A DNA stretch of 64,000 bases from Rubripirellula amarantea (lineage in GTDB: Bacteria > Planctomycetota > Planctomycetia > Pirellulales > Pirellulaceae): positions 3,099,406 to 3,163,405 of the forward strand of contig NZ_SJPI01000001.1 of assembly GCF_007859865.1 (NCBI RefSeq), read 5' to 3'. Every line of letters begins with the position of its first letter. Positions within the stretch are counted from its first letter, which is position 1. Below, piece after piece: positions 15,845-23,199 of this stretch. Made by a program: the position numbers and the translations under genes. Under the pieces are notes generated by a model. The model had not been told where the DNA came from, searched no databases, and was given only the letters and a program-made list of their open reading frames with translations.

Positions 15845-17673
15845 TTGGTCACCTCAATCCCTTGGCTTTGCGCTACCAATCGATACGGTCCCGTTTGTCG
15901 GACAAGTTCAGAGTGCGTCCCTTCTTGGACGATCGATCCGCCTTCCATCACCAACACTCGATCGGCACCTCGCAACGTGCTAAGTCGGTGCGCGACAATT
16001 AGCGTGGTTCGGCCTGCTGACGCAGTTTCCATAGCGCACATGATCTCGTGTTCCGTCTCGGGGTCGATCGCGGAGACAGGATCGTCGAGTAGCAGAATGG
16101 CCGGGTCCGTCAGGATCGCCCGGGCCAGTGCCAGTCGTTGACGCTGTCCGCCCGAAAGCGACATTCCAAATTCGCCTAGCATTGTGTCGTAACCGTCCGG
16201 TGACTCTTCGATAAAATCGTGGGCGGCCGCCAGACGTGCCGCCATCCTGACTTGCTCGCGAGTCGCGCCGGGAACACCAAAGGCAATGTTCGCTCCGATC
16301 GTGTTGCTTAGAAGCAGCGGTTCTTGCAGCACCAAACCGACGCTGCGTCGCAGCGTTTTGAGGTCCCATTGTCGTACATCAACGCCGTCCACTTCGACGA
16401 TACCGCACTGCGGATCAAAAAATCGCGGGATCAAACTCAACAGCGTCGACTTGCCCTGACCCACGGCACCCAAGATCGCAATCCGTTCGCCCGGGCGGAT
16501 GTGAATGGAAATGTCTTTAAGCACAGGTTGCCCCGTCTGGTATTCGAACCAAACGCTGTGCAAGTCAATCTCGCCCTGAACGCGATCCGGCGTCCAAGGG
16601 GAAGCGGGCGGCGAGACTTCCTCGCTTGCGTCGAGCACTTCGAAGACTCGCCGAGCACCCGTCAACGACTCCTGAATCGAACCGGCGAGACCTGAAAGAT
16701 TTCCCACTTGATTGCTGAATTGTTGCAGTAGGCCAGCGTACACAATCAAACCTGTTCCCAGTGGCAAGACGCCGATGGACGTCAGGTAGCCGCCATAGAT
16801 CAATAAAATCACCAGATTGACTTGAGTCAGGAATCCAACCAGCGGTCCAAACCGACTCACTTTGGTAAACACTTCTTGTTGCTGATTTTCGACAGCATCG
16901 TTGGCCTGATGAAAACGTTTGATTTCCGCTTCCTGGCGACCAAGCGATTTGATCACTGCCACGCCGTCGCTGCTTTCGGCAACTCGAAGGACGAGATCGT
17001 CAAGAAGTTGCCGCGTTCGATCGTACATTGGCCGGACAGTTCGCGAAAAACGAATGCTAATCCACCAAATCATCGGAGTCGTAATCAAGCAGGCTATCGT
17101 AAGTCCGACGTGAATCCGCAGCATAAAGGTCAGGTACACGACCAATGACATGGCAAGGATCGAGAGTTGTACCAATACGCCGTCAATGAACATTCGAGTA
17201 GCTTGGACGTCGCCGGTCACGCGATTGATAATCGTGCCAGCGGGTTGGTCATTGTAGAATCGCAAACTGAGTCGCTGCAGTTTTGCGTACACCTTCGCCC
17301 GCAGGTCGACGACAATTTTGCGTTGAACGAGCGTCCCAGATGTAATTGCGTATGCGTAGTTCAAGGCGGCTCGCAGAATCGCAATCACGATCATCGCGAC
17401 TACCAGTGATACGACTTGTTTCATCGGCGACCAACTCACCGGGAACGTGAATTCCAACGGCAAAGTTGGCAATGTCGTGGTGCTGCCAGCGTGAAAGCGG
17501 ATCACGTCGATGGCAAGGCCACCCACTTGAACCAGCGTGACAGCCAGCCCCATCAAAATTGCCTGCAACGCCAGCATCGCTGCGCACCAGCCGCGATAGA
17601 CCCAGGCTAGTTGCAGCAGTCTCAGGACGACCTTGCCGTTGGTCAGCGCGGTGGGGGGCGAATGCTCGTTCAA
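15841..17673 (-). CDS. ABC exporter half-transporter with Asp in place of the catalytic Glu
   Basis: A 610-residue half-transporter: six transmembrane helices in the first 330 residues, then an ATPase domain with Walker A GAVGQGKST, canonical signature LSGGQRQ and VAHRLSTL. Walker B is ILLLDDPVSAID, so the catalytic Glu is Asp. In heterodimeric exporters this residue marks the subunit that supplies Walker A/B to the degenerate ATP site. The partner encoded downstream has the matching altered signature motif. TTG start overlapping the metX/metW stop by 4 nt (TTGA), giving a tightly coupled run of genes. Confidence 0.9.
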   Translation of the reverse strand: MNEHSPPTALTNGKVVLRLLQLAWVYRGWCAAMLALQAILMGLAVTLVQVGGLAIDVIRFHAGSTTTLPTLPLEFTFPVSWSPMKQVVSLVVAMIVIAILRAALNYAYAITSGTLVQRKIVVDLRAKVYAKLQRLSLRFYNDQPAGTIINRVTGDVQATRMFIDGVLVQLSILAMSLVVYLTFMLRIHVGLTIACLITTPMIWWISIRFSRTVRPMYDRTRQLLDDLVLRVAESSDGVAVIKSLGRQEAEIKRFHQANDAVENQQQEVFTKVSRFGPLVGFLTQVNLVILLIYGGYLTSIGVLPLGTGLIVYAGLLQQFSNQVGNLSGLAGSIQESLTGARRVFEVLDASEEVSPPASPWTPDRVQGEIDLHSVWFEYQTGQPVLKDISIHIRPGERIAILGAVGQGKSTLLSLIPRFFDPQCGIVEVDGVDVRQWDLKTLRRSVGLVLQEPLLLSNTIGANIAFGVPGATREQVRMAARLAAAHDFIEESPDGYDTMLGEFGMSLSGGQRQRLALARAILTDPAILLLDDPVSAIDPETEHEIMCAMETASAGRTTLIVAHRLSTLRGADRVLVMEGGSIVQEGTHSELVRQTGPYRLVAQSQGIEVTN

Positions 17674-19436
17674 GTTGGCGATAGCAGCAAAATCGCTGTG
17701 TCAGCGTTCAGGTTCGGATCGTCGATGGCGCTCACCCGACGATTGGATTCCGAGTCGAAATAGATTTCCGACTTGATTGCAATTCCTTTCTGATCGCAGA
17801 GGTCGCAAACGTCAGCGATCGACGGAAATCGCCGATTGGGCGTATTGAACCAATCGAAGTTGAAGGCTCCGTTGGCCTTGGGTGACCGTCCTCGCATGAC
17901 ATAGTCTTCCCGCAATGCGCGGTACGCGAAATTGGGAAAGCTAACAATCGTATGCTTCCCCACTCGCATCATTTCGTCGAACAGCGATTCGATATTCGCA
18001 ACCGCTTGGAGCGTTCCGCTTAAGACGACATAGTCAAATTGCCCATCAATGAACGCAGGAAGACCTTGATTTAAGTCATAGTCGATCACATTGAGCCCGC
18101 GCTTTGCTGCGCGAACGAGATCGTCTTGGGCGACCTCAACACCGACAAGCCTGTTGTGGCCGCGAGCAGCCAAGGCCGACAAGAGTCGTCCGTCTCCGCA
18201 GCCCAGGTCGAGTACCGACGAGTCGGGACTGACCATTTCCAAGATAGCCTCTTCCGCCAACGTTAGTGGCGAGTCAGGATCGCTGAGCGTGCCAAGCTTG
18301 GCTTCGATCAAGCCGGCGTATTGGTCGATGTCTTTATCAATTAAGAACGCGTCGTGTCCGGCGTCGGTCGTGATTTCCGCGTAGGTGACCGGTTTACCCA
18401 GCGCGGAAAGCGCTTCCACGATGTCTTGCGATTGTCGTGGTGGGAAAAGCCAATCACTGCTGAAAGATATAATCAAGCAATCGCACCGCAAATCGTCAAA
18501 CGATTCCATTAACTGCAATCGACTTGATCCCAGGTCCAGCAAGTCCATTGCCATCGAGATCGCGACGTAGCTGTTGGCGTCGAACCGAGTGGTGAACTTT
18601 TCACCTTGGTGGGCTAGATACGATCCAACGCTGAATCGTTGCTCAAAGATGGAGGCAAATTGGCGAGGGTCATGGCGATCAGGATCAAACTTTGCCTCCA
18701 TCGCTTGGCTTGATAGGTACGTGATGTGTCCCAGCATCCGGGCGATGGCTAATCCGGTGTCCGGGCGAAGGTCGCTGTCGTAGTATTGTCCGTCGCAAAA
18801 ATTGGGGTCGGTTTGAATCGCGTTTCTGGCCACTACGTCGAAACCGAGTGCTTGGTTTGTCAACCGTGGCGAGGTAGCGATGGCGATGCAAGTCTGCACT
18901 GATTGGGGATAACGAATGCTCCAAATCATCGCTTGATGACCACCGAGTGACCCTCCGATCACGGCGCGAAACGCTTCGATCCCAAGCGAGTCCGCAAGAA
19001 GTCGCTGAATCATCACGATGTCACCGATCGTGATGCGAGGGAACTGTGCTCCGTAACGTTGGGGCGGATTACTTCCTGGAATGACATCCGAGGGACCCGT
19101 TGTTCCCCGGCACCCACCCAACACGTTCGGGCAAATCACGAAGAAGCGATTCGTATCAATGGGTTTCCCCGGACCAATCAGCCGATCCCACCAACCAGGG
19201 TCGTCATCCGCATCGTGTTTGGCCGCGTGCGAGTCCCCCGAGATCGCGTGGCAGACCAAGATGGCGTTGCTGCGATCTTTGTTCAGCGAGCCCCACGTTT
19301 CATACGCGCACGTGACGGATTCGAGCTGCCCACCGAGTTCCAGCTCGATGGGGCCGGCGAACTGAATCTCCTTCGCATGGCGCAAAGGAGCAGCAGAGCG
19401 AAAGTCGTCGGTGCTGGCGTTGCGGGACGAGGACAT
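17670..19436 (-). CDS. metX: Homoserine O-acyltransferase (MetX) fused to MetW-like methyltransferase domain
   Basis: The first 380 or so residues are an alpha/beta-hydrolase homoserine O-acyltransferase: CAYETWGSLN, CHAISGDSHAA, NVLGGCRGTTGP, nucleophile Ser in GGSLGGHQAM (usually GGSMGG), catalytic Asp in SSDWLFPP and His in AGHDAFLID. The last 200 residues are MetW-like, with a SAM-binding SVLDLGCGDGRLL, FDYVVLSGTLQ and VSFPNFAYR. MetX and MetW are usually separate neighbouring genes; here they are one chain. The product activates homoserine for sulfhydrylation by MetY, encoded 98 nt upstream. Acetyl versus succinyl specificity is not decidable by eye. Start at the ATG giving MSSSRN; two upstream in-frame starts (to 19502) exist and no Shine-Dalgarno site decides. 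Confidence 0.88.
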   Translation of the reverse strand: MSSSRNASTDDFRSAAPLRHAKEIQFAGPIELELGGQLESVTCAYETWGSLNKDRSNAILVCHAISGDSHAAKHDADDDPGWWDRLIGPGKPIDTNRFFVICPNVLGGCRGTTGPSDVIPGSNPPQRYGAQFPRITIGDIVMIQRLLADSLGIEAFRAVIGGSLGGHQAMIWSIRYPQSVQTCIAIATSPRLTNQALGFDVVARNAIQTDPNFCDGQYYDSDLRPDTGLAIARMLGHITYLSSQAMEAKFDPDRHDPRQFASIFEQRFSVGSYLAHQGEKFTTRFDANSYVAISMAMDLLDLGSSRLQLMESFDDLRCDCLIISFSSDWLFPPRQSQDIVEALSALGKPVTYAEITTDAGHDAFLIDKDIDQYAGLIEAKLGTLSDPDSPLTLAEEAILEMVSPDSSVLDLGCGDGRLLSALAARGHNRLVGVEVAQDDLVRAAKRGLNVIDYDLNQGLPAFIDGQFDYVVLSGTLQAVANIESLFDEMMRVGKHTIVSFPNFAYRALREDYVMRGRSPKANGAFNFDWFNTPNRRFPSIADVCDLCDQKGIAIKSEIYFDSESNRRVSAIDDPNLNADTAILLLSPT

Positions 19437-19534
19437 GTTGATCAAGAAAAGCGGATTGGTGAAGTCGTCATTGCACATCGCGACGCAGGCACTCAGCGGC
19501 AACCAACGAGCTACTCGCGACCAATTCTTGGCAC

Positions 19535-20985: not shown

Positions 20986-22929
20986 TCAGCTTTCTTTGGC
21001 GAAATCGACACGGCGCCGCTTGCGTCCCCGTCCAATCACGGCGTACGCCCATTCGCTTTGCATCGGTTCATCGCTGCCGGCGAACTCACGAATGAGCCAT
21101 CCACGACGGGCGGCGGGGGATCCGGCCGGTGGCGATCGCCGACGGCGGTCAATTTGCTCGGCAGTGACGAGGCGTAAGTCGGGCCGCGATTCCATCAGCA
21201 TCGAGTAGTAGCCCTCTTCAGAGAGCTCGTGATACCTCAGGTCAACTTTCTTTCGATCGGTCCAATGAGCCTCTTCACCGAGCGAGTCGATCAGATTTCG
21301 TTTGGTTAACCAATCTACTCGGCCGATCGCCATGTCGATGTCGTTGGCGTTTTGTCGAAACGCGTTTGCTGCATCAAACAATTCTTGCCAGCGATATAGC
21401 ACTAGCTTGGCGTCACCGAGCATGTTTGCCGGCGCATCGTCAACAAACCGCTTGGCCAAATTGAGATACACCTTTTGGATGTCCAATGCCGTCATCTCGC
21501 CACGGCTGGTAGGGACCCGAGAAACCAAGTTCCAGTCCGACGAGATCCGGTGCAGCGATTCGACCGGTTGGCGAATGATCGGCAGGCCTTCCACGTAGCC
21601 ACATTCGATCATATCGAGCACGAGTGACACCGAAGCCACTTTCACGTACTCGGCCAAATCGGACATGTTGGAATCCGATAATCCGATTTGCAGTCGTTGC
21701 CGTTTGGCAAACATGCTGCGCGTCGATGTCAGCGAGAGAAAGGATTTCGCGCAAAACTGAGCCAACCAATGTCCGAACACAAAGATCGGTCGCTCGCCGC
21801 GAAAGCCGCCCATATGAGAAACCGAATCAATCGCCATCGCTTTCGGGCTGAGATGATAACAACCGTCGGGATCAAGGTTGCCTGCCCCGCATAGTGCGAC
21901 GCGTGAAATCAACATCGGAGCTAAATAATGCCGTTGTTTGCGAAATGCAATGTGTTTGGCGACAAACCCCAGCACCAGCACCGTCGGTAAATGAACGAGG
22001 CGAAGCGAATGGATCAACAGCCCCGAAACCCAAGTCGGCAAACTCGCCAGGACATCTCGATTGTCTAGTGGTAACGGGTCGTCGTCAAAATCGTGGAATT
22101 CTGTTTCCTGGGCGAGTTTGTCTTTGCGCGATTTAAGTAACCGAGAGATGCCGACCAGCGAGATAAGAACCAACATGATTGGCATTGCCACCATCAAGCT
22201 GATCACTTGCATGCACCAGAGCAGAGCAATGAAGCCTCGGTACACGACTAGCAACCAACCTGTGGCCACTTCGGCTTCGTAGTTTTCCTGGCAGCCGTAA
22301 ACGTGCCCCAAAGCATCACTGCTGTTTTTCAGAATCCGCAAATCAAAACTGGTCTCTGAATCAAACGTAGCTTCCGAAGCAAGTTCGTCGATTGATCGCT
22401 GGCAGGAAAGCAGTTCAGTTGGATTGCGAACCTCGGGTGTGGCGATTTCAACCAAACCACCTGGCGCTGAGTGCATGGAAGGATGCGATTCGAACGAGAT
22501 CGCGCCTCCACTGGCCAAAAACAATTGTTCGCTATCGAACAGTCCGCCAACGGTGGGTTGATCGCGCTGGACCGCTTCACAGATTTGTTCAAAGACCAAG
22601 CGGGCTGGCGGAAGATCTTCGCGATCGAGGTTCTGTGGGTCGTTAACCAGAGTCGCGTACTCGGTTTCGAGCCCAATCAGGCGAGACACCAGCGGACGAT
22701 CGAGCCGGAACGCTTTGGCTTTACGGCTACCCGATCGAACGGTGTCGCGATCATTGCCGGTTGGGTCACTCCCCGGGGCGCTGGTGTCGCTAACCCCATC
22801 CTTCTGACTACCAGCGTTCTGATCGCCAGCGTTCTGGTCACCAGCATTGGGCTCACCAGCGGCTTTACCTTCGCCGGGATGATCCGTGGCGGTCTGATCG
22901 TCGGGAGGCAAGCGCGAATCGTCAGACAT
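20986..22929 (-). CDS. PafA/Dop (Pup ligase/deamidase) family protein with membrane insertion
   Basis: A 647-residue relative of the glutamine-synthetase-like enzymes PafA (attaches Pup to lysines) and Dop (deamidates or removes Pup). After a disordered acidic N-terminus with repeated NAGDQ units, the family blocks appear: RLIGLETEYA (beta-strand with metal-binding Glu residues, about 83-92), VEIATPEVRNPTELL, VYGCQENYEAEV (counterpart of the YGCHENY motif, about 210-221) and LQIGLSDSNMSDLAEYVKV (counterpart of the GDSNMSE motif). Directly after QENY, two hydrophobic stretches (about residues 224-261 and 299-331) interrupt the domain, predicting membrane anchoring. No Pup, UBact or proteasome gene is in the window. 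ATG preferred; a TTG 27 nt upstream is in frame. Confidence 0.82.
   Translation of the reverse strand: MSDDSRLPPDDQTATDHPGEGKAAGEPNAGDQNAGDQNAGSQKDGVSDTSAPGSDPTGNDRDTVRSGSRKAKAFRLDRPLVSRLIGLETEYATLVNDPQNLDREDLPPARLVFEQICEAVQRDQPTVGGLFDSEQLFLASGGAISFESHPSMHSAPGGLVEIATPEVRNPTELLSCQRSIDELASEATFDSETSFDLRILKNSSDALGHVYGCQENYEAEVATGWLLVVYRGFIALLWCMQVISLMVAMPIMLVLISLVGISRLLKSRKDKLAQETEFHDFDDDPLPLDNRDVLASLPTWVSGLLIHSLRLVHLPTVLVLGFVAKHIAFRKQRHYLAPMLISRVALCGAGNLDPDGCYHLSPKAMAIDSVSHMGGFRGERPIFVFGHWLAQFCAKSFLSLTSTRSMFAKRQRLQIGLSDSNMSDLAEYVKVASVSLVLDMIECGYVEGLPIIRQPVESLHRISSDWNLVSRVPTSRGEMTALDIQKVYLNLAKRFVDDAPANMLGDAKLVLYRWQELFDAANAFRQNANDIDMAIGRVDWLTKRNLIDSLGEEAHWTDRKKVDLRYHELSEEGYYSMLMESRPDLRLVTAEQIDRRRRSPPAGSPAARRGWLIREFAGSDEPMQSEWAYAVIGRGRKRRRVDFAKES
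22811..22870 (+). repeat. 15-nt degenerate tandem repeat, 4 copies, in the PafA/Dop-like gene
   Basis: Units starting with ccagc lie at 22811, 22826, 22841 and 22856. On the minus strand they encode the NAGDQ pentapeptide repeats of the disordered N-terminus. Confidence 0.75.
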
Positions 22930-23199
22930 CGAATCAGGTCGACCAGGAGCGGCCAAGTGAGTTTGGGGGGCTATTGGGGATCGGGCAATCGTGCGTTCAT
23001 TGTAGCGAGCGATTTCCCCGAGCCGATTGACAAATTCAGGGACATTCCAAGAACAGCACTTGTTTCGATATTATCTAGCTCTGCGACAAATGCGAGAACC
23101 TTCGTTTCCCTCCGCTGGAGTGCCCTGAAACTGGATTCTCGCCAGTCACGGAATTCTTGTCGCACCGTCCTCCACGCTACTAAACAGCACTTTGCTCCT

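Follow-up and report, generated by a model that had tools for sequence, protein, structure and literature searches.

What would an enzyme of the Pup-ligase family act on, and where in the cell, when hydrophobic helices interrupt its catalytic domain and no tag gene lies beside it? This question is raised by a gene in the window, by which we mean the whole 64,000-nucleotide stretch of Rubripirellula amarantea DNA analysed here. The first-pass annotation, reading motifs, had described the product as a PafA/Dop relative, perhaps tethered to the membrane, that might use a different protein modifier or substrate. The gene and its parts are as follows.

20986–22956, minus strand: Pup_ligase-family (PafA/Dop-like) gene, 656 aa from a TTG start; PF03136 match with E 1.5e-67
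22929, minus strand: alternative ATG start, giving 647 aa; the start used in the first-pass annotation
22693–22956, minus strand: low-complexity N-terminal extension (residues 1–88) ahead of the catalytic domain, from sequence; start codon uncertain
22660–22674, minus strand: GhExE motif GLETE (residues 95–99), from the alignment; motif as given in PMC2588565
22489–22491, minus strand: Glu156, at the aligned position of the PafA catalytic Asp (profile alignment)
21904–22278, minus strand: insert between Y226 (QENY strand) and R352, predicted membrane segment, from the alignment and the modelled helices
22213–22269, minus strand: hydrophobic segment 1 (residues 230–248), Kyte–Doolittle (KD) mean 1.69
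22147–22203, minus strand: hydrophobic segment 2 (residues 252–270), KD mean 2.62
21943–21999, minus strand: hydrophobic segment 3 (residues 320–338), KD mean 1.72

The enzyme belongs to the PafA/Dop family. PF03136 (229 bits against a cut-off of 25; residues 92–637, model positions 1–438 of 441) is the only Pfam family above cut-off, and a profile of 54 aligned rows, the window's own included, matched the PDB chains of Dop (best, 253.6 bits) and PafA (best, 193.4 bits) and nothing else at E 0.001. An AF2 model of residues 80–656, with residues 1–79 left out, had a mean pLDDT of 92.2 and a pTM of 0.92; the closest solved structures were those of Dop (4b0r and 7oy3; for 4b0r, Z 41.1 over 412 residues at 2.3 Å), and PafA 4bjr_B gave Z 35.6. 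The kinship read from motifs is thus borne out, as is the GS-like fold that structure prediction had been proposed to confirm; the GLETEY, QENY and SDSNMS blocks stand in the order described, and the long N-terminus is present. Scores fell far under the cut-offs of both NCBIfam models (PafA TIGR03686, 124.2 of 551.3 bits; Dop TIGR03688, 120.5 of 492.3 bits), so the enzyme is a member of the family but neither equivalog.

The active site is conserved, with one substitution. Glu97, Glu99, Glu170, Glu175, Asp214, Glu224, Tyr226, Arg352, Arg421 and Asp428 each occur in 54/54 rows, and these include both glutamates of the GhExE motif. In the profile alignment, Glu156 falls on the Asp of LYLDVGSH in PafA 4b0t (LYLNVGSH, with Asn, in 4bjr); its column holds E in 53 of the 54 rows and D in one, and the canonical catalytic Asp (PafA Asp64, Dop Asp94) is absent here. 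Asp94 is given as the catalytic position of Dop in PMC8599861, and the PafA residue is probably number 64, given that Leu63 and Val65 flank the catalytic Asp in Table 1 of PMC7947786. Compared with the same table, the EIATPE stretch of the window enzyme is neutral between the two enzymes, its first A being PafA-like and its P Dop-like. We did not find a Glu in place of the catalytic Asp in print.

The hydrophobic insert after QENY, already remarked on in the first pass, is kept across all 54 rows. It measures about 125 aa in the window enzyme (between Y226 and R352) and 104–139 aa over the rows. When hydrophobic windows were defined as 19 residues with a KD mean above 1.6, the insert of the window enzyme contained three, and those of the relatives two or three (46/54 rows, the window's included) or one (8/54). 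The AF2 model draws the insert as a 51-residue helix (residues 233–283) and a 28-residue helix (308–335). Both ends of the insert join the catalytic core, and therefore an even number of membrane crossings is expected; three KD windows and two long modelled helices fit two crossings and four alike. Tethering of the enzyme to the membrane is likely on these grounds. An enzyme 45% identical to that of the window is encoded in genome G443 (locus L087), which we take to be that of R. baltica SH1.

Is there a tag for this enzyme? Of the 54 aligned rows, 39 have a short Pup-like frame with a GE end at the start of the enzyme gene, on its strand. No candidate Pup frame with a G[EQ] end adjoins the enzyme gene of the window, so that the remark of the first-pass annotation that no Pup gene is nearby is literally true. 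Across 241 genomes of the window's family, we found 105 Pup-like places, 66 of which end 20–200 bp before the PF03136 match of an enzyme on the same strand, and 39 of which are non-adjacent (in draft genomes, this means enzyme and tag on different contigs). We built a tag profile from 19 Pup-like proteins, none of them from the window's clade, and searched 14 genomes with it. In each of 11/11 clade genomes, it gave one match that reached the last model position, with E values of 1.2e-9 to 9.4e-4 (2.0e-7 in the window's genome); in three control genomes, it matched the adjacent tag gene, and the next best match anywhere in the 14 genomes had E 0.207. Absence of a tag gene from the window's genome was thereby ruled out. 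The gene lies as follows.

G000:C1, 2525964–2526161, plus strand: Pup-like tag gene of the window's genome, 65 aa, ending RSNVGHDGE, no lysine

It sits on the same contig as the enzyme gene, 594,230 bp away, and is of the same kind as the genes found next to related enzymes. For the genome as a whole, the suggestion that the modifier is missing or of another kind is thus not borne out.

The relocated tags form a uniform set. Frames were fetched for 31 of the 39 non-adjacent places (all but those of G434, G436, G477, G476 (two), G355, G409 and G448), and all 31, from 31 genomes, end in DGE before the stop codon; elsewhere the tail of the Pup-like proteins is GGE or another xGE. Over the last 33 codons, pN was below pS in 465/465 pairs of these 31 tags, pairs that share ancestry. 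The DGE tail and helix of the relocated tag are under purifying selection. Proteins of 50–90 residues with a C-terminal G[EQ] are treated as Pup-like in PMC2588565, and the tag of the window's genome, 65 aa with a DGE end, is of this description. Established Pup models did not recognize these proteins. PF05639 had no match over cut-off in the window's genome and matched 0/19 and 0/23 Pup-like proteins, the window's own being among the 23; scans of the proteins against Pfam and NCBIfam hit no Pup model and gave stray matches only (E 0.19 and 0.062); and a profile of the Pup-like proteins matched no Pup chain in the PDB, its two matches being unrelated chains (E 0.37 and 9.5). Since no Pup model or chain matched, what ties the tag to Pup is its position, its size, its tail and its co-occurrence with the enzyme.

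Around the relocated tag gene, some of the neighbours recur within the genus, but they are not shared with the other genera checked. In a Pfam scan of these neighbours in the window's own genome (L142, 4376–14625), the tag gene lies between divergently oriented genes for ribosomal proteins S12 and S7 and for EF-G and a His_biosynth gene, which is followed by three large genes without a Pfam match; parts of this arrangement are common to loci of the same genus.

Part of this picture was anticipated. Iyer, Burroughs and Aravind (2008; PMC2588565, cited in PMC2837639) described Pup ligases of Rhodopirellula and Plesiocystis with four transmembrane (TM) segments after core strand 4, noted no proteasome linkage for them and suggested membrane-associated protein tagging. 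The window's system resembles theirs in that the hydrophobic insert comes straight after core strand 4, there is no proteasome link and the Pup-like protein ends in G[EQ]. It differs in that Pup is invariably adjacent to the PafA gene according to that paper, whereas the tag gene here is 594 kb off, and in having three hydrophobic windows and two modelled helices as against four TM segments. The novelty of the membrane-insert design is therefore mostly lost to that publication for Rhodopirellula; what is new here is the split arrangement of enzyme and tag genes with its DGE tail, together with the Glu-type site. An unlinked arrangement was not found in print. Among the matches listed, searched by titles and abstract openings and with subscription literature mostly outside, we found no experimental work on the membrane-insert subfamily; searches for PafA2 returned no literature, and those for UBact returned mostly unrelated papers.

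Set against the known enzymes, that of the window shares with PafA (4b0t, 4bjr) the GS-like fold and the GhExE and strand-4 motifs but has the insert and Glu for the catalytic Asp, and its genome yielded neither a 20S proteasome nor Mpa. It is structurally closest to Dop but carries the insert, and in its genome there is no second family member to serve as the ligase and the tag already ends in Glu. The tag is like Pup in being a small protein with a Gly-Glu tail, encoded at the enzyme start in many relatives; it differs in the failure of PF05639 and PDB chains to match and in its DGE, or elsewhere GGE/xGE, end.

Enzyme and tag occur together. With a tag profile that includes members of the window's clade, unlike the 19-protein profile above, Pup-like matches at E 0.01 were found in 99 of the 241 genomes, and PF03136 matches of any kind in 120: 96 genomes had both, 24 the enzyme only, 3 the tag only and 118 neither (Fisher p 8e-40, kinship ignored). 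Counted by genus (n = 68), the figures were 37, 2, 1 and 28, respectively (p 1e-15, kinship ignored). The tag-only genomes are G409 and G448 (E above 0.001) and G477 (4.2e-11), the last of which belongs to the window's genus. The stretch upstream of the enzyme was fetched for 17 of the 24 enzyme-only genomes and seen separately for G365 (L094), leaving out G456, G470, G471, G479, G485 and G489. In 14 of the 17, it held a similar-looking GE frame, such as YLEQIDAGQSGE; in G313, the frame was of another look, and in G475 and G504, from genera of the unlinked clade, the fetched stretch held none. Counting G365, 15 of the 24 enzyme-only genomes thus do have a similar-looking upstream GE frame that the profile missed, and the evidence from co-occurrence is stronger for it. 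Of the 19 genomes of the window's genus that bear the enzyme, 15 had a tag match, the other four being G470, G471, G475 and G479.

A tree of the 54 enzyme rows (insert columns removed, midpoint rooting) gathered the 15 rows that lack a neighbouring tag frame into one group (SH-aLRT 97) nested among tag-linked rows, which amounts to one change; one separation event therefore suffices. For 11 of these 15 rows (L036 by way of G468, apparently the same contig), the tag was sought through the whole genome, and L034, L035, L037 and L038 are called unlinked in the tree solely for want of an adjacent tag frame. Some genomes carry more than one family member. G458, G459 and G460 (L078, L079) have two full-length PF03136 matches each, each with an adjacent tag match; G501 also has two, with one tag match adjacent and one distant; and at L104–L111, in other genomes, there are tandem PF03136 pairs, in which the rows of L104, L106 and L108 lack the insert.

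The window's genome was also searched for a proteasome. It encodes one PF00227 (proteasome-fold) protein, on another contig (34.6 bits against a cut-off of 22.4), and no Mpa/ARC ATPase (TIGR03689) over cut-off, the best score being 151.7 of 504.75 bits; hence this genome, the only one searched in this respect, shows no evident route to a 20S proteasome. The PF00227 gene adjoins a transglutaminase-like gene (L004 (G000:C4), 414–2046), and we take the pair to mark an Anbu-like (Anbu-type) peptidase. Pupylation is chiefly known from actinobacteria, as a mark for the proteasome, and Corynebacterium pupylates without a proteasome.

Around the enzyme gene, a conserved operon partner was sought and rejected: in a comparison covering 33 of 38 loci (all but L097–L101), neighbouring genes were common to close relatives only. 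alaS stands beside the enzyme in the window, L072, L073 and L076; a four-gene block occurs, whole or in part, at L034–L038, L074 and L075; another block is common to L086 and L087; and a few further gene pairs recur elsewhere. An Rfam scan around the enzyme gene gave nothing informative. Elsewhere in the window, a 610-aa frame (17670–19502, minus strand) fuses an alpha/beta hydrolase domain, presumably homoserine O-acetyltransferase-like, to a MetW domain (PF07021, 4.4e-45) and adjoins a Cys/Met PLP enzyme.

We consider it probable that the window enzyme carries out membrane-anchored, proteasome-independent ligation of the Pup-like tag. The helices inserted after core strand 4 would hold the GS-like catalytic domain at the inner membrane. 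With ATP, the enzyme would activate the small Pup-like protein, for which the 65-aa product is the candidate, at the gamma-carboxylate of its C-terminal Glu, and ligate the activated tag to an amine, most likely on lysines of proteins in or near the membrane; no 20S proteasome would be involved. Ancestrally, the cognate tag gene would have stood just upstream of the enzyme gene and have been separated from it in the window's clade. We prefer a ligase to a hydrolase because there is a single enzyme copy (one PF03136 match in the whole genome) and the tag ends in Glu rather than Gln, a combination that fits a ligase needing no deamidase.

Removal is the main competitor to ligation. An enzyme that mainly removes or hydrolyses, as Dop does, or one bifunctional enzyme akin to the PafA/Dop ancestor, seems to us the less likely reading but one with appreciable weight, since both profile score and structure (Z 41 against 36) lie nearer to Dop than to PafA; the enzyme being the sole PF03136 copy in its genome and single-copy planctomycete homologues forming the outgroup to both PafA and Dop in PMC7947786 point the same way. 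A pure depupylase would, however, be left without a substrate unless another protein did the conjugating, and the genome yielded no second PF03136 protein; nor is deamidation needed for a tag that already ends in Glu. It is distinctly unlikely that the enzyme of this clade has turned to another modifier or to a small molecule while the relocated Pup-like protein went its own way. The pairing is drawn between genes that are unlinked in the clade, and four of the 19 enzyme-bearing genomes of the genus show no tag match, but the other 15 do, the tag's DGE tail and helix are held by purifying selection, and the ten active-site columns are invariant whether or not the tag of a row is linked.

The two other alternatives concern what kind of protein this is. 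That the hydrophobic stretches span no membrane, forming instead a soluble hairpin of helices or a dimer interface, would agree with a model of one 51-residue and one 28-residue helix in place of four clear crossings and with an Arg inside the first hydrophobic segment in 50/54 rows. We think it improbable, given KD means of 1.7–2.6 in the insert (up to 3.0 in relatives) when nothing outside the insert exceeds 1.6 in 53/54 rows, and given a core that aligns over 412 residues to soluble Dop, a protein that lacks any such insert. The same alignment speaks, if only indirectly, against the buried core helices that the first pass had named as refuting its reading. There is next to no chance that the enzyme is some other carboxylate-amine ligase, such as gamma-glutamate-cysteine ligase, the identity against which the first pass had proposed to check its reading and which was rejected here: the fold is held in common (YbdK-type ligases 1tt4 and 1r8g, Z 20.8 and 20.6; plant glutamate-cysteine ligase, Z 16.7), but PF03136 stands alone above the Pfam cut-offs and the Z scores of Dop and PafA are about twice as high.

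Beyond membrane-anchored ligation of the Pup-like tag, we offer as a speculation, and hold it doubtful, that a single Glu-type membrane enzyme both attaches and removes the tag, which would act independently of the proteasome as a signal carried by membrane proteins or even by amino lipids, with the tag and enzyme genes regulated apart; for attachment to amino lipids, Atg8 provides a comparison. For work on the family, the present case carries a warning: searches confined to neighbouring genes, or made with the Pfam Pup model, miss Pup-like tags of this kind. The unlinked tag gene named here supplies the missing partner with which the 2008 prediction of membrane-associated tagging may be tested and, if our reading is true, a membrane-inserted enzyme with a tag of its own would show an independent use of Pup-like tagging.
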